Assembly: GCA_946414095.1 (NCBI GenBank)
Contig: CAMKNB010000004.1
Coordinates: 1-61,735, forward strand
Length of the DNA stretch: 61,735 nucleotides
DNA from: an uncultured Mycoplasmatota bacterium
GTDB lineage: Bacteria; Bacillota_I; Bacilli_A; RF39; UBA660
Reading direction: 5' to 3'
The number at the start of each line of letters is the position of its first letter. The stretch's first letter is position 1. A program made the translations under genes and the position numbers. Below the pieces are notes generated by a model. That model was given only the letters and a program-made list of their open reading frames with translations. It did no database searches and had not been told where the DNA came from. Positions 17,468 through 34,100 of the stretch are shown here, piece after piece.

Positions 17468-18007
17468 TTAATAATCGCAAGTATATCCACTTTGATCATA
17501 GTATATTGTTCTTGTTTGACCTGACACCGGAATGTTTAGTCCAATTCCTAGTAGAGGTATTTTCATTGTAATAAAAGTAGTAACTTTATAATATGTATTT
17601 CTACCGGTATTCTCATTGTCTTGACATACTTTTACTATACAATATCCTCCCTCTTCAAAATGAGTAGCTTTAGGATCTTGTCTAGTACAATTAGTAGCCC
17701 TTACACCATCATAATCATATCCAGTATTTTTTATTAGAGTATAAGCCTTCGCTTGTACTGTATCACCTATAGTATATCCCTTCTCAGCACATTTTCTTGT
17801 AAGATCAGTATTTCCAATATCATCACTATTAACACCACAAATACCTACTTCAGTAAATCCTTCAGCATGTTCAATATAATTAATTATCTCATTTTTAACA
17901 TTAAATGCTCTTGTATAATTAATTGAATATGTTAAAAAGAATAAGAATAAAAATATAAATACGACTACAATACTAAGAATCCAACTTCCTCCTATGGCCT
18001 CTCTCAT
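17468..18007 (-). CDS. TadE-like minor pilin
   Basis: The 179-residue protein starts MREAIGGSWILSI, then a hydrophobic segment (about 9-28) leading into SINYTRAFNVKNEI. This matches the pattern of TadE minor pseudopilins (hydrophobic helix then an R-A-F-x-V-x-N segment). The remaining domain is extracellular with seven cysteines, suggesting disulfides. The short charged leader resembles those of the Flp-like and dockerin pilins of this locus. The start follows AAGGAG. There is no prepilin peptidase gene in the window, so processing cannot be judged. Confidence 0.72.
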   Translation of the reverse strand: MREAIGGSWILSIVVVFIFLFLFFLTYSINYTRAFNVKNEIINYIEHAEGFTEVGICGVNSDDIGNTDLTRKCAEKGYTIGDTVQAKAYTLIKNTGYDYDGVRATNCTRQDPKATHFEEGGYCIVKVCQDNENTGRNTYYKVTTFITMKIPLLGIGLNIPVSGQTRTIYYDQSGYTCDY

Positions 18008-18044
18008 AATATAACTCCTTTTTTTCTTATTATAATTTAAAAAA

Positions 18045-18078
18045 AACTATAAACTATAAGCAACTATAATTTATAGTT
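18045..18078 (-). terminator. Terminator after the Flp-like pilin gene
   Basis: A 14-base stem (AACTATAAACTATA with TATAATTTATAGTT, one C/A mismatch), six-base loop, and seven to eight T on the minus strand. It isolates the pilin gene from the genes after it. Confidence 0.85.
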
Positions 18079-18101
18079 AATTTTAATATTTTTTCTATTT
18101 A

Positions 18102-18416
18102 TTAATCATTAGCTTTATGACAAGTTGTTTCACTATTATTTACTGAATTACCATTTGCATCAGTAGTTGTAACAGTATCAACACCCTCTGGGCAACAAAA
18201 CCATTCTTTAACAGTTGCTTGAGTATTTCCACCAGAAACATCAGCATTTGCTCCTGAAACAGCATGCCATGTTGGACCATAAGTTGTTCTACATGATTGA
18301 TTAACAACTTGTCTTTGAATTAATGGCCATACAACAAAATAGAAAATTGCACCAATTGCAGCAATAGCAATTAAAGTAACAACTGTCATATTTAATTCTC
18401 CTGTAGCTTCTTTCAT
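18102..18416 (-). CDS. Flp-like major pilin candidate
   Basis: The 104-residue protein starts MKEATGELNMTVVTLIAIA; one hydrophobic helix (about 10-32) follows a six-residue leader ending in Gly, consistent with a type IV/Flp prepilin. The mature domain is small, Thr/Asn-rich, with four Cys (SC, FCC and a C-terminal CHKAND). It has its own consensus promoter and terminator and a strong AGGAGG SD, as expected of an abundantly made pilus subunit. Classical Flp pilins are shorter (50-70 residues) and have a Glu-Tyr after the cleavage site, which is not seen, so it is a divergent member. Confidence 0.7.
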   Translation of the reverse strand: MKEATGELNMTVVTLIAIAAIGAIFYFVVWPLIQRQVVNQSCRTTYGPTWHAVSGANADVSGGNTQATVKEWFCCPEGVDTVTTTDANGNSVNNSETTCHKAND

Positions 18417-18484: not shown

Positions 18485-19294
18485 CTACATATTGCCAAAC
18501 ATTTGTAAAATAGATAATAAGACAATTACAATAACTCCTGCTCCTGTGGCTACTAACATTGACATAGTCTTCTTTTCCATTTTTTCTAATCTTTCTTTAT
18601 ATTTAGTTTCTCTAGATTTAGCTTGTAAGTTTGATATTGTTCTAGAGAAAACTATTAATTGCTCTTGTTTTCTTTCTTGACTACCTAAACTAAGTCTATA
18701 TAAAAGTCTCATCATACGCATAGAATCTCTAACTGGATACCTACGTGCAAATGCCATATATGGCTCTATTGTTGAATCACCTGCATCAATTGAAGCAATA
18801 AGTTCACGAAGACCAGGTTTAAACATTTCTGGAGCTTCTTCTAAACTCCTTGTAATTGCAACAGGAACCGTATAGTGTTGAATCAAGATTTCTAAACTTT
18901 TTAAATAGTATGGAAGTTTTAAATTAATCTCATGTAGATGAACCTTATAAAATCTTTTAACTTTATTATAATCATCTTTAAAGAATAAATATGTAACCCC
19001 TATAACTATAACAATTTTAATAGCAAAATTTACTCCACTTACACTTGTCATTACAACTACACATGCAATAATAAATGCAATTATTGAACTTTTGACTCTT
19101 TCTTGATATCTAACATTAGGATCTACCCTATCACCATATTTACTAGTTACAAAGAAATCATAATCATCTTCTTTTAATTTACCAAAAACAGTTTTATTAT
19201 CAGCAACAAACTTATTAAAACTAAATACACCTATATAGTTAAATAAGAATACTAATATAATACCAACTGCTAATATCTCTATTCCTGTAGTCAT
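18485..19294 (-). CDS. tadC: Tad pilus membrane protein TadC
   Basis: This 269-residue type II secretion F-domain protein is paired with TadB. A first helix (about 4-24), two central helices (about 70-105), a cytoplasmic F domain (LKLPYYLKSLEILIQHYTVP, a conserved start) and a C-terminal helix are visible. TadB and TadC form the inner-membrane platform on which the TadA ATPase drives pilus assembly. The start overlaps the tadB stop by one base (TAATG), so they are translationally coupled. Confidence 0.85.
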   Translation of the reverse strand: MTTGIEILAVGIILVFLFNYIGVFSFNKFVADNKTVFGKLKEDDYDFFVTSKYGDRVDPNVRYQERVKSSIIAFIIACVVVMTSVSGVNFAIKIVIVIGVTYLFFKDDYNKVKRFYKVHLHEINLKLPYYLKSLEILIQHYTVPVAITRSLEEAPEMFKPGLRELIASIDAGDSTIEPYMAFARRYPVRDSMRMMRLLYRLSLGSQERKQEQLIVFSRTISNLQAKSRETKYKERLEKMEKKTMSMLVATGAGVIVIVLLSILQMFGNM

Positions 19295-20193
19295 TATTCA
19301 GCACCTACATCCTCATGGTAGTATTTAATACCGGTTACTAAGAAGTATGTGTTAATAATTATTACCCCATGCAGTAATACAACAACATACCAATCTTCAA
19401 GTAGAAGCAAGTAACTATCATTACCTAACAATAATTGAACTAATAATACAAGAAAATATAATGCTACACCAAATGTTAAAAATTGTTTATAGAAATTAGT
19501 TCTATCTATTCTATCACGATATACGCTTTCAACAAGCATATCTATATCTTGAAGCATTCCTTCTAAAGCTTCACCAGAATCCTTAGAACCTTCTTTTGTA
19601 ATTTGAATAAACAATTGGTGCATATTTTTAATTACATAATAGTCGTACTTTTCATTCATAAATCTTATAGCCTCATCGATTGTACCATTATCATAGGCCA
19701 TTTGAATCATTTCTTTTATATCTGCAAGAATTGGATCTTCAAGAACTCCAGATTCTTTAACACCTTCTAGTGCTTTTACAAATGATTGAGTTGTATTATA
19801 TTCCATAATAACATTAGTAGTATAAATTTGAACTTGTTCAAATAAGAATTCACTATATGCTTTCTTACATCTCATATATGTAAGATATGGCACAAATGAT
19901 ATTGCTGCTGCAGCATATATGATACTCCATATAATACTATAAAAATACAAATAAGCTACAAATGCTGCTACAACGCCAAATATTGTTATTTGAATAAAAT
20001 ACTGTCTAGGAGTATATTCTTGCCCTAATTCTTTTGCTTTTTCTCTAACTACTTTAAAAGAATATGGTGAATATTTTTCATACGTATTACCAACAGTTTT
20101 AGCAATAAATTTATATGAATTATTGCCAGTATTCTTTCTGTATACATATACAAACAATACAATAGCTGCAATTACAAATACTTCGACATACAT
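19294..20193 (-). CDS. tadB: Tad pilus membrane protein TadB
   Basis: The 299-residue T2SS F-domain protein has an N-terminal helix (3-20), a central pair of hydrophobic helices (about 72-105), a cytoplasmic domain with VQIYTTNVIMEYNTTQSFVKAL and TKEGSKDSGEALEGM, and a C-terminal helix pair (about 235-285). It is the partner of TadC. The gene sits 11 bases after tadA with an AGGAGGT SD. Confidence 0.85.
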   Translation of the reverse strand: MYVEVFVIAAIVLFVYVYRKNTGNNSYKFIAKTVGNTYEKYSPYSFKVVREKAKELGQEYTPRQYFIQITIFGVVAAFVAYLYFYSIIWSIIYAAAAISFVPYLTYMRCKKAYSEFLFEQVQIYTTNVIMEYNTTQSFVKALEGVKESGVLEDPILADIKEMIQMAYDNGTIDEAIRFMNEKYDYYVIKNMHQLFIQITKEGSKDSGEALEGMLQDIDMLVESVYRDRIDRTNFYKQFLTFGVALYFLVLLVQLLLGNDSYLLLLEDWYVVVLLHGVIIINTYFLVTGIKYYHEDVGAE

Positions 20194-20204
20194 ATTATTA
20201 CCTC

Positions 20205-21410
20205 CTATATTTCTACAATTTCTATATTATCTTTTACCTCTTCTTTTACAGGACTATTTCCAGCATCAACTTTAATAGTTGCTTCACTATTACTATTTAG
20301 TGATACTTCAACATTTTCTTCTACTTTGCCACTTTCTTTTACTTCACTATCTTTAGGAATAAATGGATCTTCTTTCATTACTACTCCTTGAGAAGCAAGA
20401 TAATCAATTAAGTGACTTGTTGGATTATTGTAACTTTCATTTCCTGCCAAATCTCTACTATATATAATATTAACTTTAGCTTCATTAGCTTCATCATCAA
20501 CATAAAATTCAACAACTTGGGTAATTTCTCTTTGAAATCTATTGTATTGTTTTGAGAAAAAACCTTTAACATGTATACCAAGTTGAATATATCTATGCAT
20601 ACCTTTAACAAATTGATCAATATCTTGACTTGATTCTAAAAGTGAATAAAGACGCATAGGAATACTTGATGCTTTATCTGAGTGAATTGTTGATAAAATG
20701 TTATGTCCTGAAGAAATTGAGTTTCTAACAGCCATAACAGCTTCAGCAGAACGAACCTCTGAAAGTAAAATCCATCTTGGGTTTTGACGCATACAAGCAA
20801 CCAACACATCAGAGTATGAAGCAATGTTATTTGTTTTCATTGCTACTATATCTCTTGTTGGATATATTTTATCTAAGTGAAGTTCTAAAGTATCTTCTAT
20901 TGTAATTATTTTTTCATCTTCTTTTATATGACTTGCTAGATACTTAATAAGTTCAGTTTTACCAGAACCAGTTTCTCCACTAACTAATATATTGCAATGT
21001 CCTTGAACACATTCAATTAGAAAATCATGTAATTTAAGAGATACATAATCTTCTTCAATTAATTTTTCTTTTTTAAGTCTAATCTTAGCAGGTGTTTTTC
21101 TTATTAGTACTGCTATTCCATTAGTAGCAATAGAATCATGGACAAAATTAAGACGCAATTCAGCACTTTCTGCATCTAAAAGTGGGTGTGCCATATTAAA
21201 TGTTTTTCCCATAACATTAGAGCATTGAAAAGCTAGTTTTTCCATTACTTCATTTGTAAGGCCATCTATATGTTCTGGATATACACCTTTAGATAAAGAT
21301 TTAACCCATAACTGTCCACCATTAGAATATGAAATATCTGTAATATCATCATTATCTAAAAGTGGTTGAATTAACCCAAAATCAATTTGAGAAAAAACCA
21401 TTGTGTCCAT
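20205..21410 (-). CDS. tadA: Tad pilus assembly ATPase TadA (CpaF)
   Basis: In this 401-residue secretion ATPase, Walker A is GETGSGKTE (145-153). An Asp-box-like IITIEDTLEL, the Walker B region WILLSEVRSAE and the His-box HNILSTIHSDKA follow. These are the hallmarks of CpaF/TadA, which hydrolyses ATP at the cytoplasmic face to polymerise pili. The last about 50 residues are an acidic, low-complexity tail (EVKESGKVEENVEVS) beyond the usual family end. The order tadA-tadB-tadC with short gaps indicates one operon headed by the two cpaB-like genes. Confidence 0.93.
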   Translation of the reverse strand: MDTMVFSQIDFGLIQPLLDNDDITDISYSNGGQLWVKSLSKGVYPEHIDGLTNEVMEKLAFQCSNVMGKTFNMAHPLLDAESAELRLNFVHDSIATNGIAVLIRKTPAKIRLKKEKLIEEDYVSLKLHDFLIECVQGHCNILVSGETGSGKTELIKYLASHIKEDEKIITIEDTLELHLDKIYPTRDIVAMKTNNIASYSDVLVACMRQNPRWILLSEVRSAEAVMAVRNSISSGHNILSTIHSDKASSIPMRLYSLLESSQDIDQFVKGMHRYIQLGIHVKGFFSKQYNRFQREITQVVEFYVDDEANEAKVNIIYSRDLAGNESYNNPTSHLIDYLASQGVVMKEDPFIPKDSEVKESGKVEENVEVSLNSNSEATIKVDAGNSPVKEEVKDNIEIVEI

Positions 21411-21437: not shown

Positions 21438-22223
21438 TTAATCTGTTATTGTAATTTCTTCTATTCCTTTAACATCTGTTTCAGGAGTTAGATTATGAGA
21501 TAAGCTATTTATATATTCAACTATTCTATTAGTATTTTCTCTGTAAATTGATGTATCAGCATTATACTCTGCATTTCTTGGTACAGGAATAACATAACCA
21601 TTTAAATAAATAGCTTTTCTTAATAATAAATGCATATTTTCAGGAACTGAAAATATTAATGCAGCAGCATTAGTTTGCTCAGCACTTTTCTTAAAGATAT
21701 GATTTCCTCTTTCATCTTTTACAGCAAGAACTGTAATACCTTCAATTAATTTACCAACAAATCTATTTTCTCCCATACTCCCTTGATAATATAAATCAAT
21801 TTTATCTCCAGGATAAATTGAATTACCATATGTAGATTGAGAGTTTACAGAAAGTGATACAATCGTATGTCCTTCAGGAATATCTGACCAAGTTGAATCT
21901 GGCATACTTGACCATGTTACAACTGCGCTATCATAAAATAGGCTTCCTTCTGGAATAAATGTATTGTAATTAACATATTTTCCAATAATATTTTCTTTAT
22001 TTAGAATAACATTGTTTGTAATCATTGAATATGCAACTTTTACTGTTTTAATATCATCTTCTTCTATTAACTTTCTTGCTTCTAATGTTTTAGTTGCAAT
22101 TGGAACACTTACTGCATTTATTGCTTTATTTACTCTATATCTGTATGCAAAGAATAATATAGCCAAACATATAGCAATGGCAACTATAGTAACAATACCT
22201 TTGTTTCTAAACAATTTTCCCAT
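21438..22223 (-). CDS. CpaB-like SAF-domain protein 1
   Basis: The protein has 261 residues. An N-terminal helix (about 9-27) is followed by an SAF domain (about 40-110; VPIATKTLEARKLIEEDDIK, then FIPEGSLFYDSAVV) and a CpaB/RcpC-type beta region (SLSVNSQSTYGNSIYPGDKIDLYY). In Gram-negatives CpaB/RcpC sits in the periplasm and aids the secretin. A monoderm has no secretin, so here it may guide the pilus through the wall. The start overlaps the stop of its paralogue by one base (TAATG). Confidence 0.82.
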   Translation of the reverse strand: MGKLFRNKGIVTIVAIAICLAILFFAYRYRVNKAINAVSVPIATKTLEARKLIEEDDIKTVKVAYSMITNNVILNKENIIGKYVNYNTFIPEGSLFYDSAVVTWSSMPDSTWSDIPEGHTIVSLSVNSQSTYGNSIYPGDKIDLYYQGSMGENRFVGKLIEGITVLAVKDERGNHIFKKSAEQTNAAALIFSVPENMHLLLRKAIYLNGYVIPVPRNAEYNADTSIYRENTNRIVEYINSLSHNLTPETDVKGIEEITITD

Positions 22224-23035
22224 TAGTTATTACCTCCTATAATAGTAGGACCATACATTTGATCTTCACTAAGTGTATTCCTTTCAATTTGCATTTTTAT
22301 TTCATTACTTACAATGCTAGTTTTTTCAGGATTCTTTGAATATTCTGCATTTCTTGGCACTGGGAATAAACTTCCTCCAGAAAATTGTACCTTTCTTAAA
22401 AGCAAGTGAATATCTTCTGGAACACTAAACATTATATATGCTGGAGTTCTAGGACTATCAATTGTTTCAAAAACACTATTTCCTGCTGAATCAACTACAG
22501 CAAGTATTTTGATACTTTGTATAAACTTTCCAAGCATTAATGCTTGTTTACCATTAACTATCCCATTAGGATTTACATAATATAAGTCAATATAATTACC
22601 CGGATACATTGAATTACCATAAGTTGACTCAGTAGTTACAGATAATAATACAACTGTGTTTCCATTAGGAATATCTTCAAATAAACTTGATGGCAAATTA
22701 TCCCAATCAACAACCATTTCAGAATAAAATAAACTTCCTTCTGGTATAACTGCTGTATTTAGTACATATTTTCCAACTATATCTGCTGTACCTAATAATA
22801 CATTCTTTCCTACTATTCCACCTGGAACTTTCTTTATTGATACCATATCACTAGTTATTTTAGTTCTTGGTGCTATTGCTCTAGTAGCATAAGGAACGTT
22901 AACAGGCTCCGTAGCTTTTTGTATTCTATAATAATACGCCCAATATAAAATAGCTAGAGATGCTAAAATAGCTAAAATAGTAACTGTGTTTTTATTTTTT
23001 AAAAATCTTTTAATACTAATCATAATACTGCTCAT
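22223..23035 (-). CDS. CpaB-like SAF-domain protein 2
   Basis: The 270-residue protein is a paralogue of the 261-residue CpaB-like protein downstream. It has the same layout: helix (about 17-35), VPYATRAIAPRTKITSDMV, VIPEGSLFYSEMVVDW, LSVTTESTYGNSMYPGNYIDLYY and the C-terminal FPVPRNAEY motif, which both share. Tandem duplication with retained order suggests a hetero-oligomer. SD GGAGG precedes the ATG. It is the first gene of the cpaB-cpaB-tadA-tadB-tadC unit. Confidence 0.82.
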   Translation of the reverse strand: MSSIMISIKRFLKNKNTVTILAILASLAILYWAYYYRIQKATEPVNVPYATRAIAPRTKITSDMVSIKKVPGGIVGKNVLLGTADIVGKYVLNTAVIPEGSLFYSEMVVDWDNLPSSLFEDIPNGNTVVLLSVTTESTYGNSMYPGNYIDLYYVNPNGIVNGKQALMLGKFIQSIKILAVVDSAGNSVFETIDSPRTPAYIMFSVPEDIHLLLRKVQFSGGSLFPVPRNAEYSKNPEKTSIVSNEIKMQIERNTLSEDQMYGPTIIGGNN

Positions 23036-23122: not shown

Positions 23123-23145
23123 AAAATCTAGATTATCTAGATTTT
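23123..23145 (-). terminator. Terminator after the dockerin pilin gene
   Basis: Perfect stem AAAATCTAGA/TCTAGATTTT with loop TTA and a T run on the minus strand. It touches the stop codon at 23144. Confidence 0.85.
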
Positions 23146-24145
23146 ATTTATAACTATATTTTCCACTAATTAACCAATCAACAAGTTCCTTTAAATCATC
23201 TTTATTAACTTTATTATCACCATTTATGTTAGCTCTCTTTAATTGTTTTTCAGTTAATGTAGACTTATTATTTAGATAACTATATAAATATTCAACATCA
23301 AGAGCAGTTACTCTTCCATCTCCATTGATATCTCCTTTTACATAACTATCGATTAAAGTACTTATATTTCCATCAACAAAATTTTTTAATATATTATAAT
23401 CTTCATTATTATATTTTCCATCGCAATTAACATCAGCCAATATTTTTTCTTCTCTACGTAAAGTTGCACCACTCTTAAGTAAATTTACATCCTCTAGATT
23501 AATTACTCCATCCATATTAACATCGCCCTGCTTAAATCTACTAAGTATTGATCTTTCAACAATAGATGCATCTATATAATCTATTTTTCCATCTCCATTG
23601 ATATCAGCTTTTGTTCCAACTTCTAATGTTGTTTTTCCATCTCTTGCCCAAGCTAATAATGTTCTACTATCATTAATATCAGTTACATTACTATTATCAA
23701 CATCTGCATCTACACTATAGAATGTAGAAAATAAACCATCATCATCTGTAGTTTCTAATATACCAGTTATAAATGTATTTATTTCAAGATTAATTCCATC
23801 ATTATTAATTGATGTTTCTCCAGTATCTGTACTAATTCTAATAGTTGCCTTTGGTGGATATTCGTAAATATCATAAAAATCTATTCTATAATCCTTATCA
23901 GCAGTTACACTATCTGCAAATCTTCTAGTAAATATTGCAACAAATTTTTCTCTAGACATTACTAACTTATGTGTATTCATATAAGAACCATAATCAACTG
24001 CATCTAGCATAGCAGATTTTAAAACCTCTCTACTTAAATAATAATCTTCTTCATTAGTAGTTGTTAATCTTTGAACAAATAACAAAATACCAATAATTAC
24101 AACTCCTAAAATAACAATTAAATATCCCCACATTGACTCTTTCAT
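23144..24145 (-). CDS. Pilin-like protein with tandem dockerin-type calcium-binding repeats
   Basis: The protein has 333 residues. The N-terminus MKESMWGYLIVILG gives a seven-residue leader and a hydrophobic helix (about 7-25), as in TadE-type pseudopilins, followed by an extracellular domain to about 140. From about 146 to 330 are F-hand repeats. Five are clear, at about 181 (DINGDGKIDYID), 208 (DVNMDGVINLED), 238 (DVNCDGKYNNED), 272 (DINGDGRVTALD) and 307 (NINGDNKVNKDD). One at about 146 (DVDNSNVTDIND) is degenerate. They could form three dockerins. A pilus minor subunit presenting dockerins is unusual; a cohesin-like protein is encoded at 9881-11386. SD GAAGG is upstream. Confidence 0.8.
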   Translation of the reverse strand: MKESMWGYLIVILGVVIIGILLFVQRLTTTNEEDYYLSREVLKSAMLDAVDYGSYMNTHKLVMSREKFVAIFTRRFADSVTADKDYRIDFYDIYEYPPKATIRISTDTGETSINNDGINLEINTFITGILETTDDDGLFSTFYSVDADVDNSNVTDINDSRTLLAWARDGKTTLEVGTKADINGDGKIDYIDASIVERSILSRFKQGDVNMDGVINLEDVNLLKSGATLRREEKILADVNCDGKYNNEDYNILKNFVDGNISTLIDSYVKGDINGDGRVTALDVEYLYSYLNNKSTLTEKQLKRANINGDNKVNKDDLKELVDWLISGKYSYK

Positions 24146-24191: not shown

Positions 24192-24224
24192 AAAAAAAAA
24201 GAATATTTTAAATATCTTTTTTTT
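24192..24224 (-). terminator. Terminator after the 211-aa membrane protein gene
   Basis: A/T-rich hairpin (AAAAAGA-TATTT type arms) with eight or more T on the minus strand, overlapping the stop at 24223. Confidence 0.65.
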
Positions 24225-24858
24225 AAATACCATGCTTAATTTTTCTAAATTTAGAATTATAGTATGTAACACTAATAATACAAGTAATAACAAATAATAG
24301 TATTTTAATTCCCCAATTTAGCATAAATGTAGTTATTTTATCCAATGTTGTCAGTTCTTCCTTTTCTTTGTTTTTATCATCTTTTTCTTGAACTATATTA
24401 TTATCATAATTGCTTTTTGCCATTTCTAAGCTTTCTTTTGTTACTTTAATAGTTGTAAATTGTGCAGTACAACTTCTTATTTTATTTTCATAACCTATAC
24501 AATCATTACTACCATAGAATTCATTAAAATATAGTTGATTAATATAAATTACTCCAGCAATATCACAATTCTCATCGCTATCATATATATCTATTACCAT
24601 ACTAGTTCCTTCAGGTACAAATCCAATAGTAACAGTATCATCTTCATTTCTTTCATAATACCTATTACCGTATTTAACCCTTAATCCATCAACTACATTA
24701 TATAATGTTACAGTAAATCTATTGCTACTCTTACTATAACTATTATCGTATGTAATTTTTGATGCATAATTAATATATTCTTGATGCTTTGCAGTATCGC
24801 ATGTTTTAGCAAATACAAACATTGGAATAAACAACAGTACTAATAATATTTTTTTCAT
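24223..24858 (-). CDS. Type I membrane protein, Cys-containing ectodomain (paralogue of 35030-35680)
   Basis: The protein has 211 residues. A signal peptide (1-17, ending VFA) is followed by an ectodomain with five cysteines (for example AKTCDTAKHQEYINYASK, ENCDIAGVIYI, SNDCIGYENKIRSC) and a charged linker (EKDDKNKEKEELTTLDKI). A C-terminal helix (about 180-200) and a basic tail end it. It shares layout and a LDK-near-membrane linker with the 216-residue protein at the start of the locus. The two flank the giant-protein genes, suggesting paired membrane anchors. The start overlaps the sortase stop by four bases. The function is unknown. Confidence 0.72.
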   Translation of the reverse strand: MKKILLVLLFIPMFVFAKTCDTAKHQEYINYASKITYDNSYSKSSNRFTVTLYNVVDGLRVKYGNRYYERNEDDTVTIGFVPEGTSMVIDIYDSDENCDIAGVIYINQLYFNEFYGSNDCIGYENKIRSCTAQFTTIKVTKESLEMAKSNYDNNIVQEKDDKNKEKEELTTLDKITTFMLNWGIKILLFVITCIISVTYYNSKFRKIKHGI

Positions 24859-26468
24859 TCTTCACCATCTTCTTTCATTAATACAGCATGAACTACAAGT
24901 CTTCTATTATTTCCCCCAGCACAAGTAGATAATGTTAATATCTTATCATCACTTGTTACAATCTCATTACTCTTAAAACTACTTCTTCCTGTTATTAATT
25001 TTATAAAATCTTCTTTTTCAACAGTACTATCAAAATTAATTCTTAAATAATCAGTAGTATAATCAACTTTATATGCAGAAAATATTTTAAATTTATATGT
25101 TTTATCTTCCTTATCTAACGTAATAATCATATTTTCTGAATTCTTTCTCCAAGTAGTATTCAATACTTTTTTTAACGTACCAAACATAGTACCATTTTTC
25201 ATACTATGTCCATAAATAATATTGTTATCATCAAAACTATCTGTATTATTTCTATAATCAAAATATACCCAACCCATACTAGTCTTTTTCTTATAAAAAT
25301 CATATTTCAGATAATAATTATTATCTGAATGCTGAACTACCGGATAAGATATTTCAGTATTTTTAACATTTAAATAAGCTTTAGTCTCTTTATTAATCTT
25401 CTTTAATGCTTTAAATGAATTACTAAAAGTATATTTAGATAAAATTTCTTCTTTACTTATTTCTTCTTCCATTTCCTGATCTTCATCTTCAAGTTCATAC
25501 TCATCATCATCTAAATCTCCATTATAAACATCACTGATTACATCATTTCTTAATTGTTCAACACTAATTTCTTCAATATATTCATAAGCTTTAACAATTA
25601 CAAGAGATACAATACATACATATACACATAAAATAGATATAAGTTTTAAATTATTAAATGTTAATTGTTTAAATAAATTATTTTTAAGAAAACTATTAGC
25701 ATAAATAATCCTAAATTCACAAGTATAGTCTTCTTTACATTTGTCACTTAATTCTCTTAACCATTCAAAATTATTAACAATGAAATTTCCTTTATCATAT
25801 CCTTGATGTAAAAAAACAACAACATTTCTTGATTCATCATTCTTTACTAAATCCACAATGGATTCAATTAACTCTTTTGAATATACATAAACATGAATTG
25901 CTTTCAAATTATAATTAATTTTTAAAAATTCTCTTAAATCATCAATTAATCCAGGATAGTCTTTTTCTATTTTTATTACATTTTTGTAATATAAAGTATC
26001 ATTTTCAAATGCATCTTGTTGACTTAAAAAATCTATAGATATTTCCTTAATAGATGATAAGACTACATTAACGCCTTTATTTCTAAACTTCTTAACTACT
26101 CCTCCTGGCATGTAATAACAATATATATTTTTAATATTTTCAATACCCAAAAATGTATTATAATCTTCCAAATCTAATGTAGAAGAAAAATCTAATACAA
26201 GATTACTTAAATTTAATTCTTTAATTATATTAACAACATATTTAAATGTTATTAATCTCATTATCTTTAATGTATTTAAATTAGCATAGTTTTTTTTAAA
26301 ATTCTCAATTATAGATTTAATATGAGATTTATAATATTTTAGAGTATAGTAAAAAGAATCTTTATATAAACTATTTTTGTTAACAAAGACTTTTTCTTCA
26401 TCAACTATAGTTCTATAATTAAAGACTAATGTATTATCCAATATAGTTATAACAACATATTCTTTCAT
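24855..26468 (-). CDS. Class B sortase fused to an N-terminal cytoplasmic domain
   Basis: The protein has 537 residues. Residues about 1-270 form an alpha/beta domain I cannot assign (LKIMRLITFKYVV, NLVLDFSSTLD, AIHVYVYSKELIESI, NVVVFLHQGYD). A transmembrane helix (about 274-294) is followed by an acidic stalk (315-340) and a sortase B domain. The catalytic set is His421 (NIIYGHSM), Cys516 (LTLSTCAGG) and Arg523 (NRRLVVHA). Sortase B usually has only a short N-terminal anchor. It overlaps the next gene by four bases (ATGA). Its likely substrates are pilus or giant proteins of this locus, although no classic sorting signal is seen in them. The start has a weak SD (AGGGTAG). Confidence 0.86.
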   Translation of the reverse strand: MKEYVVITILDNTLVFNYRTIVDEEKVFVNKNSLYKDSFYYTLKYYKSHIKSIIENFKKNYANLNTLKIMRLITFKYVVNIIKELNLSNLVLDFSSTLDLEDYNTFLGIENIKNIYCYYMPGGVVKKFRNKGVNVVLSSIKEISIDFLSQQDAFENDTLYYKNVIKIEKDYPGLIDDLREFLKINYNLKAIHVYVYSKELIESIVDLVKNDESRNVVVFLHQGYDKGNFIVNNFEWLRELSDKCKEDYTCEFRIIYANSFLKNNLFKQLTFNNLKLISILCVYVCIVSLVIVKAYEYIEEISVEQLRNDVISDVYNGDLDDDEYELEDEDQEMEEEISKEEILSKYTFSNSFKALKKINKETKAYLNVKNTEISYPVVQHSDNNYYLKYDFYKKKTSMGWVYFDYRNNTDSFDDNNIIYGHSMKNGTMFGTLKKVLNTTWRKNSENMIITLDKEDKTYKFKIFSAYKVDYTTDYLRINFDSTVEKEDFIKLITGRSSFKSNEIVTSDDKILTLSTCAGGNNRRLVVHAVLMKEDGEE

Positions 26469-26513
26469 ACTAATCTACCCTATATTTATAATAACATATT
26501 TTAAAATAAAAAA

Positions 26514-26541
26514 AAATATGGAACTATTCAATTCCATATTT
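26514..26541 (-). terminator. Terminator overlapping the thioredoxin-fold gene end
   Basis: AAATATGGAA (26514-26523) pairs with TTCCATATTT (26532-26541), with an eight-base loop and ten T following on the minus strand. It includes the stop at 26524. Confidence 0.8.
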
Positions 26542-27042
26542 AGTTAACAATTCTTTTAACTGATTAACATCAATTAATCCATGAGAACTATCTATCGCAT
26601 CCATAGCTTCCCCATCTTTAATATATATAATTAATGGAGCTGTATTTATTTTATCTGCAGTCACAGGATATTTATTTTTAAGAATCTTTATGTACTCGTT
26701 ATTATCTTTTACATCACTAACATTCCAATAAATAACTTTATCAATTATATGTCTCTTTTCAAACTCATTATATAGTTTTTTCTCCATATTATATACTTTA
26801 GGATAATCGAAGAAACTAACATATAAAATAGCTTCATTTATTTCTTCCAAAGCAAAATCAAAATCATCAGTATTCATTTGATTAATACTCTTATCATAAA
26901 ACACACTATTGTTAATTTTACTAGCTTGATAACTTAAATAAAACGATCTTACATACAATGTTAATATTATAACAAGAACAGAAACTATTAATACAATATA
27001 ATAGTTTTTAATTGGAACTTCTCTTAACTTATCTTTTTTCAT
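26524..27042 (-). CDS. Membrane-anchored thioredoxin-fold protein without cysteines
   Basis: The protein has 172 residues. A transmembrane helix (about 14-34) is followed by an extracellular thioredoxin-like domain (about 60-172). The core strand ILYVSFFDYPKVYNMEK stands where a CxxC motif is expected. The cis-Pro element APLIIYIKDGEA is conserved. The protein contains no cysteine, so it cannot do thiol redox chemistry. It may bind or chaperone the cysteine-rich giant proteins encoded directly upstream. A strong SD (GGGAGGT) precedes the ATG. Confidence 0.75.
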   Translation of the reverse strand: MKKDKLREVPIKNYYIVLIVSVLVIILTLYVRSFYLSYQASKINNSVFYDKSINQMNTDDFDFALEEINEAILYVSFFDYPKVYNMEKKLYNEFEKRHIIDKVIYWNVSDVKDNNEYIKILKNKYPVTADKINTAPLIIYIKDGEAMDAIDSSHGLIDVNQLKELLTKYGIE

Positions 27043-27092: not shown

Positions 27093-27113
27093 AGAAAGAT
27101 TAAAAATCTTTCT
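27093..27113 (-). terminator. Terminator after the first giant protein gene
   Basis: AGAAAGAT/ATCTTTCT stem (27093-27100, 27106-27113), loop TAAAA. It overlaps the stop at 27112 and is followed by TTTTTG on the minus strand. Confidence 0.75.
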
Positions 27114-30100
27114 AATTGTTGCCAAAATATTTACTTCCATTATATTTCTCATCAAGAGTTCCATACATGGTCATATTTTGATTAGTATCTCCTCTTAATA
27201 TTCTTAAAAATGAACTCTTACAATTTCTATATGTTCCATCAACCTCAATGCAATCATATATGTCTTCATTCATATAATCCCTATTATGCTCGTTATACTC
27301 TCTTAGTGCCATTATTTGAGAAGTTGAAAGTGAAATACTATAATCTAATAAATTCTTTGTAAATCTTAAATCATCAGAAGTAGTTTCAATCTCATTTTTA
27401 GCAATTTGACCTTCAACTGTTGCCCAGTTACTACTATCATAATATATTCCATTTGGGAACATAACTGTAGGGCTTACATTTCTATAAATAGTAGCATCGC
27501 CCAAATCACATCTATCATCTTTACAAGTAGTAACTCTAGGTATTTTAATATCAATACTACATTTAAACTTATTATCACTTGAATTTATTGCACTAAAGAA
27601 TTCATCTTTATTACTCTTTCTGTAGAAAGTATGTATCATAGGTGTAGAAACAGTAGCTCCAAGTACATAGTTAATATCACAACGTTTTGTAACATATTTA
27701 CTATCTTCATTTATTCTAATACAATCATTAATATTTAGATTAACAGCATTTTTAGAAACAGGATATAAATAATCATCAAGTGTTATATACCCAGGGTAAG
27801 CATCTCCATCCGTAATGTTTACTATATATCCAGTACCAGGCTTAGTTTGAAATTTCATATTATTATAAAGACCTATATCAACACTTACATCAAACATAGC
27901 ATAACTATAATTAGGTATTCTATATTTAGATATATGATCAGTAAATGATATATTATCAATATTTACAAAACCAGAATAATCATAATTAGCACTACTTCCA
28001 GGTACATATTTCATACAATCTGCACCATCACAATACCTAACATTTGATATGTTAGTTCTTATTGAACTATTATCAGTACTCAATGATACTTCATTAAGTC
28101 TTGAATCATTAGAATATTCTGCTCCGAATGCATATTGTACTCCTTGCATATCAATACACTTTTCTCTATTTCCTTCTCCTAAAACAGAACACTTATTTTG
28201 ACTTCCAGAACTTGTACATGTTACTTTGCCATTGCTACCTTTACTACATATACGTTCCGAATCATCAAAACCATAATTATTAGTTTCTCCAAATAAGTAT
28301 TTAATATTTTCATAAACATTTTCAATAACATTATTTCTAGGAACGTCTAAATTACTAAAATTACTTTTATCAAGTAAGAAACAATTATATAAGTCAAATA
28401 CAACTTGATTTAAATTTTCTTTTCTATTTGCTTCATTTTGAGACTTTACAAGTAAAACTGATAATAATTGACTTGCGTTATCAATTCTATCTAATTTAGC
28501 CTCTTTCATATCTTCATTAGTTATTCCATAAAGTGATTTCCAATTAATTTCTTCTGGGAAATTTAATTTATAGTATACTTGAGAAACACAAGTTCTCTTT
28601 TCACTAACAATGCTTGATAATTGATGATCGGATTTTGTTTCCTTATAAGAAAATTTTTCAATATCAAAATTAAATGTTTCTCCTGCTACTGCATTAATTC
28701 TATTTGAAAATGTATAATCTACTTCATCACTACAATAAACTCTACATAAATTACTATTAACTCCAAAATAATTACTAAAATCATAATAATTTCTAGTAGT
28801 AGATGGCATATTAACAATACATTTTAATGATGGATCTTTTATAGAGTTAGAAAATGTATTATCTCTTTGTATATTATTTGAACCATTATTATTTTCACAA
28901 GAAGCAAATGTACCAGATGTACCAGATTTATTAATACCAGTTTCATTACATGATCCACTTATATTACAAGAAATTTGATAAGTTCCAACAGTTTCTCCTC
29001 TTTTAACAATTTTAGTTGGTTTACCAGAATTATCAGTATCTTTTAAATCTTTAGACAATTCATCAGTATCAAATGCAAACATTACTTGATTCTCGTTTGC
29101 ATTACTACATGATTGATACTTTCTCAAATATTTACTAACTGAGTTTTCCTGATATACCATTTTATAATAAATTGGCGTATAATCTTGACCAGTACGCTCA
29201 CAAACTGCGTATCTAAATGTTTCAGTAGTACATCCTGAACCTTTTCTACAAGAATCAATGCCTATTTCATCACTTACCCTTTTTCCATTTTCATCTAACA
29301 AATACACTTTAGTTTCACAATAAGGTTCAATCTTTAGCTTGTCTTCTGGAGACACATCATCAAGTTTATCACAATCAAATACTACTTCTTCTGTATCTAA
29401 TGTACTAAATTCATAATAGTCTAATTCAAAAGCAACTTCAGATTCATCATCACCTTTACTTTTTTCAACAACTCTTATATCATCTGGTTTTGTATCAACA
29501 GCACCACCAAATAGAAGAGCTAAATGATTCTTCATTTCTTTGTTACCAATAAGAGTATTAAAATATAAATCTATGCCTTGACGATATGCATTATTAGTTC
29601 CACACATAACGCCAAGTAAACTACTATCATAATCATCAGTACAAGCAATTGAAGCAAATGTTTCACCTAATTTTTTGCCAGTTGGAGGAATATATTCATA
29701 TGAATATGCTACATCGTAGAATATTTCTTTTAATTCTTCTCTTATATATTTCTCAGTATATTTATATACATTTACTCCGTTACCATTGTTTACAAAAAAT
29801 CCCCATTCACCACATGATGAACCAACAACATTTGCAATTCCAATTCCATCAAATCCTCTTTGTGATGAGTGTGCTCCCCATAGTCTTAGTGCGATATTCG
29901 TAGCATCATTACTTACAGAAGTACCTATCTTTTTATTATATTCACTTTCAATTAATATATTTGCATAACCACAATCAACAGTGCTATAACTATTAGCACA
30001 TGAATTAACATCAAAATCTTCATCAACTATATACTCTGCTATATTAGTGCTTGCTTCTTTAGGAAAACCTTGGCCAGGATTTACACAATATACATCAGCA

Positions 30101-31074
30101 CCACTTTTATTAAGAATATAATCTGGTGAACATGCTTCTACTTTCATATCCTTTTCATGGCATTCATAAATAGGACATCTAAGTGAGTATTCAAAATCAC
30201 CACATGTAATTGTACCATTATCTTCATTGTCACTTATCATCTGCTCAGCAATATCCTTCAAACGATCTTGCCTTTTTTGAGCTGGCTCTTTATCTATTTC
30301 AGCTGTTATTGTTGGTGTTGCACTATATGTACAAGTTCCATTAACATTTTTTGAGCCTCTTCTACAGCATATTCCGCCATCATTATCATAATCAACTGCA
30401 CAGCAAATTCCATTTGAATTATAGCTTCCAGTTGGACAACATATTCCATTTGATTCACTACTTCCAGTTGGACAACATATTCCATTTGATTCACTACTTC
30501 CTTCAGGACACGCTTCACCAACATACTTGCAACTATCGCAAGTACATCTATACTCTTTAATTTTAGTAAAATACTTGCAATTCTTCCAGTAATCTTCTAC
30601 TGGTTTTGTTTTTCCCCTATATGTATCGCTTGTATATTGTGATTCTTTATCTACGGCTTTCTCTGCATCCACAGGATCTAGCTTAGGGGCTGTTGCTGTA
30701 CAAGTTATAGAAACAGTTACTCTTGCATCAGGATCATCACATCTAGGCATTGATGAATAAGACATATTTTTATTTTCAGCATCCATTTGAGCTGCATATA
30801 CTGTTTCTCTTCCAGCATTTACCGCATCAATAAAACTAGATAAATCGTTTGCTCCTATATCCATATATCTTTCTGATAAAGAACCAGTTGTTTTCTTTTT
30901 CATTTCACACTTAGGAACTTTTACAGTAAATCCAGCTGGAGTAATTCCAGTTTCTTTTATTTTTATTTTTTTAGCGTTTACACCACATTCAAGTTCGCCA
31001 TCTTCAGCGTGTATATATATATTAAATGAAAAAATAATAATTAAACTTAAAAGAATTAATCTAATCTTTTTCAT
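27112..31074 (-). CDS. Giant cysteine-rich secreted protein A with thioester-like domain
   Basis: The protein has 1320 residues, starting at the ATG at 31074 (SD GTGGGTGA), nine codons inside a longer frame. A Sec signal (1-22, ending IHA) is followed by a Cys-rich region with tandem SSESNGICCPTG-type repeats (about 190-245). A domain at about 325-430 contains Cys330 in DVYCVNPGQGF and DATNIALRLWGAHS (391-403), like the Cys and Gln motifs of thioester domains but with Asn393 where Gln is expected. The rest has many Cys. It ends in GTLDEKYNGSKYFGNN, with no sorting signal or membrane helix. It is homologous end to end with the 1289-residue neighbour. Role unknown; it is probably a surface adhesin or pilus component. 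Confidence 0.78.
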   Translation of the reverse strand: MKKIRLILLSLIIIFSFNIYIHAEDGELECGVNAKKIKIKETGITPAGFTVKVPKCEMKKKTTGSLSERYMDIGANDLSSFIDAVNAGRETVYAAQMDAENKNMSYSSMPRCDDPDARVTVSITCTATAPKLDPVDAEKAVDKESQYTSDTYRGKTKPVEDYWKNCKYFTKIKEYRCTCDSCKYVGEACPEGSSESNGICCPTGSSESNGICCPTGSYNSNGICCAVDYDNDGGICCRRGSKNVNGTCTYSATPTITAEIDKEPAQKRQDRLKDIAEQMISDNEDNGTITCGDFEYSLRCPIYECHEKDMKVEACSPDYILNKSGADVYCVNPGQGFPKEASTNIAEYIVDEDFDVNSCANSYSTVDCGYANILIESEYNKKIGTSVSNDATNIALRLWGAHSSQRGFDGIGIANVVGSSCGEWGFFVNNGNGVNVYKYTEKYIREELKEIFYDVAYSYEYIPPTGKKLGETFASIACTDDYDSSLLGVMCGTNNAYRQGIDLYFNTLIGNKEMKNHLALLFGGAVDTKPDDIRVVEKSKGDDESEVAFELDYYEFSTLDTEEVVFDCDKLDDVSPEDKLKIEPYCETKVYLLDENGKRVSDEIGIDSCRKGSGCTTETFRYAVCERTGQDYTPIYYKMVYQENSVSKYLRKYQSCSNANENQVMFAFDTDELSKDLKDTDNSGKPTKIVKRGETVGTYQISCNISGSCNETGINKSGTSGTFASCENNNGSNNIQRDNTFSNSIKDPSLKCIVNMPSTTRNYYDFSNYFGVNSNLCRVYCSDEVDYTFSNRINAVAGETFNFDIEKFSYKETKSDHQLSSIVSEKRTCVSQVYYKLNFPEEINWKSLYGITNEDMKEAKLDRIDNASQLLSVLLVKSQNEANRKENLNQVVFDLYNCFLLDKSNFSNLDVPRNNVIENVYENIKYLFGETNNYGFDDSERICSKGSNGKVTCTSSGSQNKCSVLGEGNREKCIDMQGVQYAFGAEYSNDSRLNEVSLSTDNSSIRTNISNVRYCDGADCMKYVPGSSANYDYSGFVNIDNISFTDHISKYRIPNYSYAMFDVSVDIGLYNNMKFQTKPGTGYIVNITDGDAYPGYITLDDYLYPVSKNAVNLNINDCIRINEDSKYVTKRCDINYVLGATVSTPMIHTFYRKSNKDEFFSAINSSDNKFKCSIDIKIPRVTTCKDDRCDLGDATIYRNVSPTVMFPNGIYYDSSNWATVEGQIAKNEIETTSDDLRFTKNLLDYSISLSTSQIMALREYNEHNRDYMNEDIYDCIEVDGTYRNCKSSFLRILRGDTNQNMTMYGTLDEKYNGSKYFGNN
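30425..30496. repeat. Tandem 36-bp repeat (two exact copies)
   Basis: Two exact 36-bp copies (30425-30460 and 30461-30496) encode SSESNGICCPTG-type repeats. A degenerate third copy lies at about 30405-30424. The period of 12 codons preserves frame, so copy number could vary without disrupting the protein. Confidence 0.88.
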
Positions 31075-31099
31075 AATGTCACCCACTATCCTAAATAAC

Positions 31100-31108
31100 A
31101 TTATATCA
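31100..31108 (-). promoter_or_regulatory. Extended -10 promoter of giant protein A
   Basis: TGATATAAT on the minus strand, 25 bases upstream of the chosen ATG at 31074 and before the longer-frame start. This also supports the internal ATG. Confidence 0.65.
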
Positions 31109-31133
31109 AATTAATAAATAAATATCTATAAAA

Positions 31134-31160
31134 AAACCTTTAGTTTTTTACTAAAGGTTT
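31134..31160 (-). terminator. Terminator after giant protein B gene
   Basis: Perfect stem AAACCTTTAG/CTAAAGGTTT (31134-31143 and 31151-31160) with a seven-base loop and T run on the minus strand. It overlaps the stop at 31159. Confidence 0.9.
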
Positions 31161-34100
31161 AATTACCACTAAAATGCTTACTTCCATTATATTCTGGATT
31201 TAATGTTCCATATTGTGTTGTACCAAGTTCTGTACTATTTCCTCTTAATATTTCAAGGAATGTACTTCTACAATTTCTATATATTCCATTGGTAATTTCA
31301 CAATTATCAATTTCTTCACTAACGAAATCTTTGTGTGTAGCATTGTATTCTTTTAATGCTCTTATTTGTTCAGGAGTTAGTGAAATGCTATATTCTAATA
31401 AATCATTAGAGTTTCTAATCATATCTGATGTAGATTCAATAGTATTTGCTGCAATTTGACCTTCAACTGTTGCCCAGTTACTTGATTCAATAACTCCATT
31501 TGGGAATAATTTTGATTCATCAGCATTTCTATAAATTGTTGAAATATCTAAACTACAATCTTTACAAGTTGTTACTTTAGGTATTCTTACATCTATTACA
31601 CAATTGAATCTATTATCACTAGAATTAATATCTCTAAAGAATTGATCATTATTTTGATTTCTATAGAATGTATATATCTTAGTATTATTTGCTTCACTAG
31701 CACCTAGTACTTGTGAAATATCGCATCTCTTAAGTGTAGATTTTGTATCACTTGAAATTGTTTTACAATATTGACTATTAGTATCAAATGTCAATGCATT
31801 CTTAGAAATTGGATATTTATATGGATCTAAAGTTATATATTTATTATTTGGATCTTCTTTAGATAACTCTATTACTGTACCATCACCAGGTTTAGTTTGG
31901 AATCTATCTTTATTATAGAATCCTATATCAACAGATACCTCAAACATTGCATAATCATTTGTAGGAATTTCATATTCTTTTCCAAATAGAACAGCTTTTC
32001 CATTTGATGAAGTGTTTGACCAGTTATTATTATTGTTATAATCATAATCTTGATGATCTTTACTTGCTACAAATTCAAAGCAATCTTTTCCAGGTACATT
32101 TGTACAATATTGTACATTTTGAATTCCATCTGCTCTTAAACTATCCATTGCAGAAGCAAGATTAACAATATTTACTTTACCAGTTTTAGTCTCAGCACCA
32201 AATTCGTAATTTACACTTGTCATATTTATACATGTATTAGTATTTTTATTAAGTGTACAATCTTTATTAAGTCCATAATTGTTTTGAACTGAACCATATA
32301 AGTAATCTACAAAGTCATAAACTTTATTAAATTTAGTTTTATTTCCATGAGAATCTTTTCCAACTCTAGCATTAGCAGTATTCTTAGGTGTTTTAATTTT
32401 GCTATCAAATTCTTCTTTATAAATATTACAATTATATAAATCATATAATACTTGATTAACAACTTCTTCTCTTCCACCTTCAGATGCTTGAGCTTTTGTC
32501 ATTAACACAACTAATAATGAACTAATATTTCTAGCTTTATCTGCTTCTGCATCAGTTAAATTATATGTTGACTTAATCTTATTATGTATTTCATCTGGGA
32601 AGTTCTTAGTATAGTAAATTTCAGATGAACATGTTCTCTTTTCCCTAATGACACTTGATAAATGATGAGATGATTGTTTTTCTTTATACATAGCAAGCTC
32701 AATATTATAATCAAATGTTTCACCTGCTACTGCATTTATTTTATTAGCAAGAACATAATCTACTTCATCACTACAATAAACTCTACATAAATTTTTATTT
32801 ACTCCAAAATGATCACTATAATCGTAAAGTTGTTTATAATTACTTGTCATGTTAACTATACATTTTAGTGATGGATCTTTAATATAATTTGTATAAGAAC
32901 CTTCACTTGTATAAGTTAATTCTCCATCTTTTCTTACTGCACAAGAACCAAAGTTATCATTCTTATTAGTTCCTGTTTCATTACAAGTAGGGTCTCCACA
33001 ACTAACAAAGAATGAATAGTTTTTAGAAGTTCCTCTAGACTCCACAGGATCTCTATAAATAATTCTTGGATCTTCTGATGAATTTTCTGGATCTGATTCT
33101 ATCCTATCTCTAACAAGTCCAAACATTACTTGATTTGCATTTGCATTTGCACAAGATTGATATTTTTGAATTGTATTTTGAGCATTACTTTCAAAATAGT
33201 AGGCTTTAATATTAATAGGTGTAACTGTTTGTGTTCCTCTACATCCTACTGCATAACTAAATTCTTCTGTTGTACAACCAGAACCTTTTTTACATTCTTC
33301 AACCTTTATTGGATCATATACATTACCATTAGAATCACTTATTCTATTTCCATTTTCATCCACTAAGTAATATACTGTTTGACAATAAGGATATATTTTT
33401 TGTTTATCTTCATCTAATATTTCAGTTGATTCTCTTAGTTCTTTACAATCATATACAACATTATCTTCAAGACCTAAATCACTAAATTCATCATATGTTA
33501 TATCTAACCATACTTTGTTTTCACCATTGCTAGTTTCTTCACCAACTATTACACTTACACCATCTGGTTCAGTGTCAATACCACCAACAACATCATTTAA
33601 GTGATTTATCATTTCTTTATTACCAATCAAAGTATTAAAGAATAAATCAATTGCTTTTCTATATATACTATCGTTTCCACCGCCAGTTTGACTACTACAA
33701 ACACGATTTCCACATGTAAGTCCAATATTTTCACAACTAATTTCACCTAATTTATTATCATAAGTAGTTGAACCTAAAGCACCATTGTTAGGTGGAATAT
33801 AATCATATTTATATGCAATTTCTTCAAAATGTTCTTTTAGATATTTTTTCATATACATATAAACATTTACTAATTGCCCATCTTCACCTGTTAAGAATAA
33901 TACTGGATTTGAACAATTACAACCAGTTACATTTGCAACACCTGTTTTATCATAACCTAATTGTCCAGAGTGTGCGCCCCATATTCTCATTGCTAAATTG
34001 ATAGCTTCATCTTCAACAGTCTCACCTAATTTTTTATGGTATTCAGCTTCAATTAGTATATTTGCATAACCGCAATCTATTGTACTATTACTACTAGCAC

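Follow-up and report, generated by a model that had tools for sequence, protein, structure and literature searches.

Background

Modular pilins are known. In Streptococcus sanguinis, PilB and PilC each display a grafted non-pilus module on a small pilin part, and the modules of such pilins are diverse (PMC8179133). The Tad pili of the Myxococcus Kil system have TadE/F/G-like minor pilins with variable C-terminal domains, which have been proposed as exchangeable tip components (PMC12075869). Of interest for monoderm bacteria, the wall hydrolase LytF promotes pilus extrusion in one of them (PMC13192262). Cohesin-dockerin docking is described from cellulosomes, where the tandem type I dockerins of Clostridium thermocellum Clo1313_0689 (8x39/8x3a) are said to prefer the cohesin of a cell-bound scaffoldin (PMC12484212), and from outside cellulosomes, as in the NagJ-NagH pair of Clostridium perfringens (2ozn). 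Pilins and dockerin proteins have been reported separately in PMC3672088, and searches of an open-access library gave no paper whose listing indicated a dockerin-bearing pilin. Here we describe a locus in which the two occur in one protein.

Results

A DUF5411 protein in a Tad-like locus

The window, by which we mean the whole stretch of 61,735 nucleotides from a gut bacterium that was analysed, contains in its list of open reading frames a 333-residue frame with an ATG start at 23144-24145 on the minus strand. The initial annotation had described the product as a pilin-like protein with five or six dockerin-type repeats in a Tad pilus locus, and this description stands: a pseudopilin-like DUF5411 domain is followed directly, on its C-terminal side, by a tail of dockerins rather than generic EF-hands, and the gene lies in a Tad-like operon. 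Both the reading frame and the order of its domains are kept in five species of the window's genus.

Residues 1-133 (23747-24145, minus strand) match the Pfam profile PF17424 (DUF5411) with 157.2 bits (E 2.8e-46). Hydropathy shows one hydrophobic N-terminal helix, at about residues 2-30, and AlphaFold2 predicts a helix at 5-49 and strands at 85-94, 99-107 and 121-129; an N-terminus of the type MKESMWG together with the hydrophobic helix is conserved in DUF5411. Profile searches and inspection of the N-terminal sequences revealed neither Glu5 nor a recognisable class III cleavage site, and no match to N_methyl. The TadE, TadF and TadG models did not match DUF5411 either, the DUF5411 profile found no structural relatives in the PDB, and pilins were absent among the listed PDB matches of the predicted model (Foldseek, VIA-align). 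One recognisable prepilin peptidase gene is present in the genome (PF01478, 53.2 bits, G000:C16). From the single hydrophobic N-terminal helix, the predicted long α1 helix and sheet, and the Tad-like operon, we conclude that the protein is likely to be pilin-like, and that it is likely a minor pseudopilin of the Tad-like system. It would enter the pilus most likely at the tip; tip complexes capped by a subunit without Glu5 are described in a review (PMC10191384).

The neighbouring genes between 17468 and 27042 all lie on the same strand. Directly downstream of the pilin gene are two CpaB/RcpC-like genes (21438-23035), which match TIGR03177 with 30.5 bits, below its cut-off, and PF16976 with 30.0 bits, above its cut-off. 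These are followed by a secretion ATPase of the CpaF/TadA type (20205-21410; PF00437, 101 bits, with a match to TIGR03819), by TadB-/TadC-like membrane platform genes (18485-20193), which are assigned from position alone and are syntenic in relatives, and by two small one-helix pseudopilin or pilin candidates with M(K/R)EA-type N-termini (17468-18416), identified by hydropathy and belonging to no Pfam family. Pfam profiles for TadB and TadC and for Flp- and TadE-type pilins gave no match in 18485-20193 or in 17468-18416. Upstream, the conserved block continues at 24223-27042 with genes for a membrane protein of no assigned family, a protein with a class B sortase domain and a DUF6568 protein; the profile matches in this stretch are TIGR03064 (153.6 bits), PF04203 (57 bits) and PF20207 (81 bits), and the assignment to the block is by synteny. 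With a TadA/CpaF ATPase, CpaB/RcpC genes and small pilin candidates alongside, the locus has in these genes the composition of a Tad (T4c) operon, and by synteny its gene block is shared by relatives with and without pilin dockerins. The pilus block also holds, at 27112-35028, two paralogous secreted cysteine-containing proteins of about 1,300 residues without a Pfam match.

Three type I dockerin modules

Over the C-terminal half of the protein, PF00404 (Dockerin_1) matches with a total of 86.9 bits (E 1e-24) in three stretches, each of which exceeds the curated cut-off of 22.9 bits. These are dockerin 1 at residues 148-201 (23543-23704, minus strand; 29.2 bits), dockerin 2 at residues 207-257 (23375-23527; 32.8 bits) and dockerin 3 at residues 270-321 (23183-23338; 48.6 bits). 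The F-hand loops start at residues 148 and 181, 208 and 238, and 272 and 306, respectively, with spacings of 33, 27, 30, 34 and 34 residues; when these residues were shuffled 10,000 times, the number of matches to a loose F-hand pattern had a mean of 0.08 and did not exceed three. The count of five clear repeats and a degenerate one in the initial annotation is correct, the degenerate one being the first loop, at residue 148.

The AlphaFold2 model of the 333-residue protein was built from 15 sequences and has a mean pLDDT of 72.8 and a pTM of 0.47, so the arrangement of the domains in it is unreliable. It begins with a long helix, which is followed by a sheet of three strands and then by three dockerin-like helix pairs; the predicted fold of the pairs matches solved dockerins. 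Residues 268-329 superpose on 2ccl_B (Z 9.3, rmsd 1.4 Å over 62 residues) and dockerin 3 on 1ohz_B (Z 8.2, rmsd 0.6 Å over 56 residues), both of them C. thermocellum dockerins solved bound to cohesins. Dockerin 1 fits the dockerin of NagH (residues 143-202 on 2ozn_B, Z 7.2), while dockerins 2 and 3 (residues 203-327) can be aligned to 8x39, a double-dockerin whose two modules are placed differently relative to each other (rmsd about 13 Å). We rejected a reading as generic EF-hands, because the EF-hand models remained below their own cut-offs on this tail (26.7 against 30 bits and 24.1 against 25.9 bits) and because the predicted fold fits dockerins. The earlier suggestion that the repeats could make three dockerins is thereby borne out by profile and by predicted fold alike: the six loops supply two loop-helix F-hands to each module, as in type I dockerins, and the protein carries three type I dockerin-type modules.

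An exchangeable slot on DUF5411

DUF5411 is widespread. In a draw of one genome per genus it occurs in 119 of the 145 genomes of the family (about 80%), and in an order-wide draw in 292 of 385. Open reading frames with DUF5411 in the family are mostly 130-170 residues long, with a short tail or none, and among the matches listed from the family- and order-wide draws only that of the window's genome covered the dockerin part. Within the window's genus, 5 of the 18 genomes have pilin dockerins: the window's genome (G000), G150 and G151 have about six F-hands, and G153 and G155 have four. A phylogeny of the linked cohesin gene, which is described below, unites these five species in one clade (local support 0.96), and we therefore count a single gain of the pilin dockerins. 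Three named metagenome-assembled genome records (L039-L041) are of the same kind.

Long tails of DUF5411 proteins were scanned against domain profiles (n=27). Peptidase_M15, the D-Ala-D-Ala peptidase family, scored above its cut-off in 12 of them, often behind an SH3 domain; Peptidase_C39_2 did so in three, and Peptidase_M23 and Flg_new in one each. YkuD and CHAP were each seen once, below threshold, and the remaining tails had no known domain. The homologs with fused domains that cleave peptidoglycan or protein (M15, M23, C39-like, weak YkuD and CHAP) are L056, L058, L059, L061, L107 and L152-L171. Like the dockerins here, the M15, M23, C39 and other domains of the homologs are extra C-terminal modules that are not specific to pili, as is characteristic of modular pilins. 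DUF5411 is an exchangeable slot protein, which occurs bare, fused to an enzyme or, in one clade, bearing dockerins. The presence of several unrelated folds, mostly acting on peptidoglycan, on one pseudopilin suggests that the slot delivers wall-directed activities to the pilus; by analogy, the dockerin version may be regarded as a docked equivalent of the DUF5411 proteins with a fused enzyme.

The tail is constrained but evolves fast

Between G000 and G150, dN/dS is 0.13 for the DUF5411 part and 0.38 for the dockerin part; between G153 and G155 the corresponding values are 0.08 and 0.47. The dockerin parts of G000 and G151 are 30% identical, with a dN/dS of about 1.1. The dockerin tail is under constraint and yet evolves fast. 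What is kept are above all the calcium ligands: acceptable residues occupy 119 of the 120 ligand positions in 24 scored repeats, and between G000 and G150 the ligands of the pilin repeats are identical at a fraction of 0.87, versus 0.53-0.60 elsewhere and 0.53 at the positions that would contact a cohesin. The exception is repeat 5, the first of dockerin 3, in which 20 of 22 residues are identical between G000 and G150, contact positions included; dockerin 3 is therefore the best candidate if any part of the tail binds a cohesin.

Conserved calcium ligands with drifting contact positions, which moreover differ between the repeats, are also what one would expect if the six F-hands formed a rigid stalk or spacer, stabilised by calcium, that made a minor pilin longer and stiffer without binding any cohesin, and a module number of two or three depending on the species fits such a part. 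The conservation of repeat 5 together with its contact residues speaks against it, as does the close fit of the dockerin 3 model to cohesin-bound dockerins, and we consider this explanation unlikely, though weighty enough to be kept in sight.

The adjacent hydrolase is the evident partner of the membrane cohesin

Every genome with the dockerin version of the pilin has at least one cohesin-like gene. In the window, this gene lies on the plus strand at 9881-11386 and encodes a membrane-anchored protein with a signal peptide, a cohesin-like domain (about residues 28-140), a cadherin-like domain and a transmembrane segment at 401-431. PF00963 matches it with 28.8-30.6 bits and, at E <= 0.1, matches all 17 of 17 orthologs (best 3e-7); the top PDB matches of the ortholog profile are cohesins, though weak ones (E 0.012), and other Ig-like models also match the domain. 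On these comparisons we regard the cohesin assignment as good but not strong.

The gene shares a four-base overlap with that of a secreted wall hydrolase (7623-9884, plus strand), which combines two SH3 domains, a glucosaminidase of the autolysin type (E 4.9e-8), a cadherin-like domain and a C-terminal dockerin (PF08239, PF00404, PF12733). By hand count, adjacent dockerin and cohesin matches of such a hydrolase-cohesin pair occur in at least 47 of the 145 genomes drawn one per genus. In the hydrolase dockerin the contact residues are alike in both repeats (4-5 of 5), are largely kept across species (ILDLLQVQKHIKG or close variants) and are identical at a fraction of 1.00 between G000 and G150. 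The pilin repeats share among themselves a mean of only 0.2-1.0 of the five contact positions and lack the hydrolase motif. The gene overlap, the occurrence of the pair across the family and the symmetric, conserved dockerin motif thus point to the wall hydrolase as the evident partner of this cohesin. Position 17 of the hydrolase dockerin changes from Q to L together with a change of W to I or V in the cohesin in G000, G150, G153 and G155 (cohesin alignment A3, window positions 9956-10315), which agrees with binding between the two but is probably a single event. The pair has the appearance of a system for docking a wall hydrolase outside cellulosomes.

The initial annotation had suggested that the dockerins could bind this membrane cohesin and so attach the pilus, or the subunit, to the surface of the cell itself. 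Its other suggestion, that the subunit could load cohesin-carrying proteins, may still apply to proteins other than this one. The two genes are separated by about 12 kb; in several other members of the genus they share a contig with similar spacing, and a comparison of the locus among relatives does find both genes in all five genomes with pilin dockerins. That half of the expectation holds; but the ortholog is equally present in 12 of the 13 genomes without pilin dockerins, 17 of 18 in all, and co-occurrence is uninformative for a cohesin found in nearly all members of the genus. As this cohesin gene overlaps that of a hydrolase whose conserved symmetric motif the pilin repeats lack, attachment of the pilus to it is not borne out; we consider it improbable, and judging from the sequences the partner of the pilin dockerins would not primarily be this cohesin.

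Other cohesins and other dockerins

Profile searches found two cohesins, one clear and one weak, in the window's genome, which is about 86% complete. The weak one is the second PF00963 match (L008, 18.1 bits, below the cut-off), in a transmembrane protein with two cadherin-like domains. Full-length orthologs of L008 among the 18 genomes of the genus are confined to G000, G150 and G151, the species with three pilin dockerins (3 of 3 versus 0 of 15; Fisher p 0.0012). We set L008 aside as a dedicated partner because the three species belong to one clade and because diverged proteins of the same layout occur in other genomes. Its identity as a cohesin is also doubtful, since the PF00963 match is weak and in an ortholog falls on a cadherin-like domain. 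Among the genus genomes examined, we found no cohesin gene tied specifically to the dockerin pilin, a result that would suit a stalk; the genome has, on the other hand, at least one cohesin, adjoining another dockerin gene, which counts against a stalk. A cellulosome was likewise rejected, as neither a scaffoldin nor dockerin-bearing enzymes for plant polysaccharides were found in this genome at its completeness of about 86%.

Large open frames of about 2,400-3,200 residues with cohesin and often dockerin matches occur in members of the genus and the family, and rumen or caecum is the source of several of the related records. For cellulosomes, cohesin-dockerin binding between species has been described (PMC12484212), and one may picture the pilus plugging into cohesins of other gut bacteria, either scaffoldins of fibre degraders or large adhesins with cohesins in related species. 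If the target were external and shared, however, the contact residues of the pilin repeats would be expected to be conserved across species, which they are not, and we consider this reading very improbable.

Four dockerin-bearing proteins were found in the window's genome (about 86% complete): two pilin-like proteins, the wall glucosaminidase hydrolase and a papain-type protease. The second pilin-like protein is encoded on contig 19 (L003:724-1911, minus strand) and is an N_methyl pilin in which the first helix is followed by a dockerin, at residues 83-137; G150 has a syntenic counterpart, and G151 encodes a similar protein. N_methyl-type pilins of this layout thus occur in three species of the same clade (L003:724-1911(-), L134:2365-3051(+) and L137:2145-3467(+)). 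The recurrence of dockerins on pilin-like proteins, two of four in the window's genome, makes a chance fusion less likely.

The papain-family protease (contig 46, L005:1471-3105, minus strand) carries a dockerin whose contact residues are of another type (ISDVMKVATHVIKG). In G151, a 644-residue one-helix surface protein with three dockerin stretches (L138:1082-3016, minus strand) may be another pilin-like protein. G147 encodes a TasA-like-looking surface protein with a DUF6273 domain and an internal dockerin-like stretch of 18.6 bits, below the cut-off (L149:737-2305, minus strand).

Discussion

We propose that the protein is a modular minor pilin to which a cohesin-bearing partner in the envelope would be docked non-covalently, where its relatives have a wall enzyme fused to them; we regard this reading as evenly poised between right and wrong. 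DUF5411 would be a one-helix pseudopilin of a Tad-like pilus that carries an exchangeable tool at its C-terminus. The position is empty in many relatives and taken in others by a fused cell-wall enzyme or another module; in the window's clade it holds two or three type I dockerins, most likely folded around calcium, which may plug into a cohesin on an envelope protein, and the partner would then be docked and not fused. The module most likely to bind would be dockerin 3, since its first repeat is conserved best. To judge from the relatives with fused enzymes, such docking may serve to bring a function acting on the wall or envelope to the growing pilus, for example in crossing the peptidoglycan.

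A broader version, to which we give a lesser, tentative standing, is that the pilus presents a universal socket for interchangeable, non-covalently docked cohesin partners, be they envelope enzymes or adhesins, of the same or of other species. If true, it would be a second use of cohesin-dockerin docking, beside the pair of wall hydrolase and membrane cohesin, and one in a pilin family that is often fused to wall-cutting enzymes.

The more general result concerns the family: across a large and mostly uncultured group of Bacilli, a Tad-like minor pilin bears a tail that is exchangeable and often directed at the wall. This touches on the questions of how a pilus passes through a thick monoderm wall and how pilus tips gain new functions. 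A pseudopilin family that has repeatedly acquired peptidoglycan-cleaving enzymes at one position, and dockerins in one clade, offers a testable link between pilus assembly and the opening of the wall. Docking between pilin and cohesin, if true, would extend the cohesin-dockerin interaction from cellulosomes and secreted enzymes to pili.

Comparison with known systems

Among dockerins, the double-dockerin of Clo1313_0689 has the same tandem type I arrangement and is the best PDB match by sequence and by Foldseek. It is part, however, of an S8 protease that a cellulosome-producing species secretes, whereas here the dockerins sit on a pseudopilin. NagJ-NagH shares with our locus the use of cohesin and dockerin outside cellulosomes and a dockerin to which our dockerin 1 corresponds in predicted fold; it differs in joining secreted glycoside hydrolases, while here one putative partner is a pseudopilin. 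Among pili, the Kil system resembles the DUF5411 proteins in the variable C-terminal domains of its minor pilins, but it belongs to a diderm predator rather than to a member of the Bacilli, and dockerins are not mentioned for it (PMC12075869). PilB and PilC resemble them in the grafting of a non-pilus module on a small pilin part; they are pilins of T4a pili with an N_methyl class III signal, whereas the protein described here has DUF5411 and is encoded in a Tad-like operon, and its modules are dockerins, which the main text of PMC8179133 on modular pilins does not mention. Set against these modular pilins, the protein described here is a clade-specific variant with dockerins as the module.
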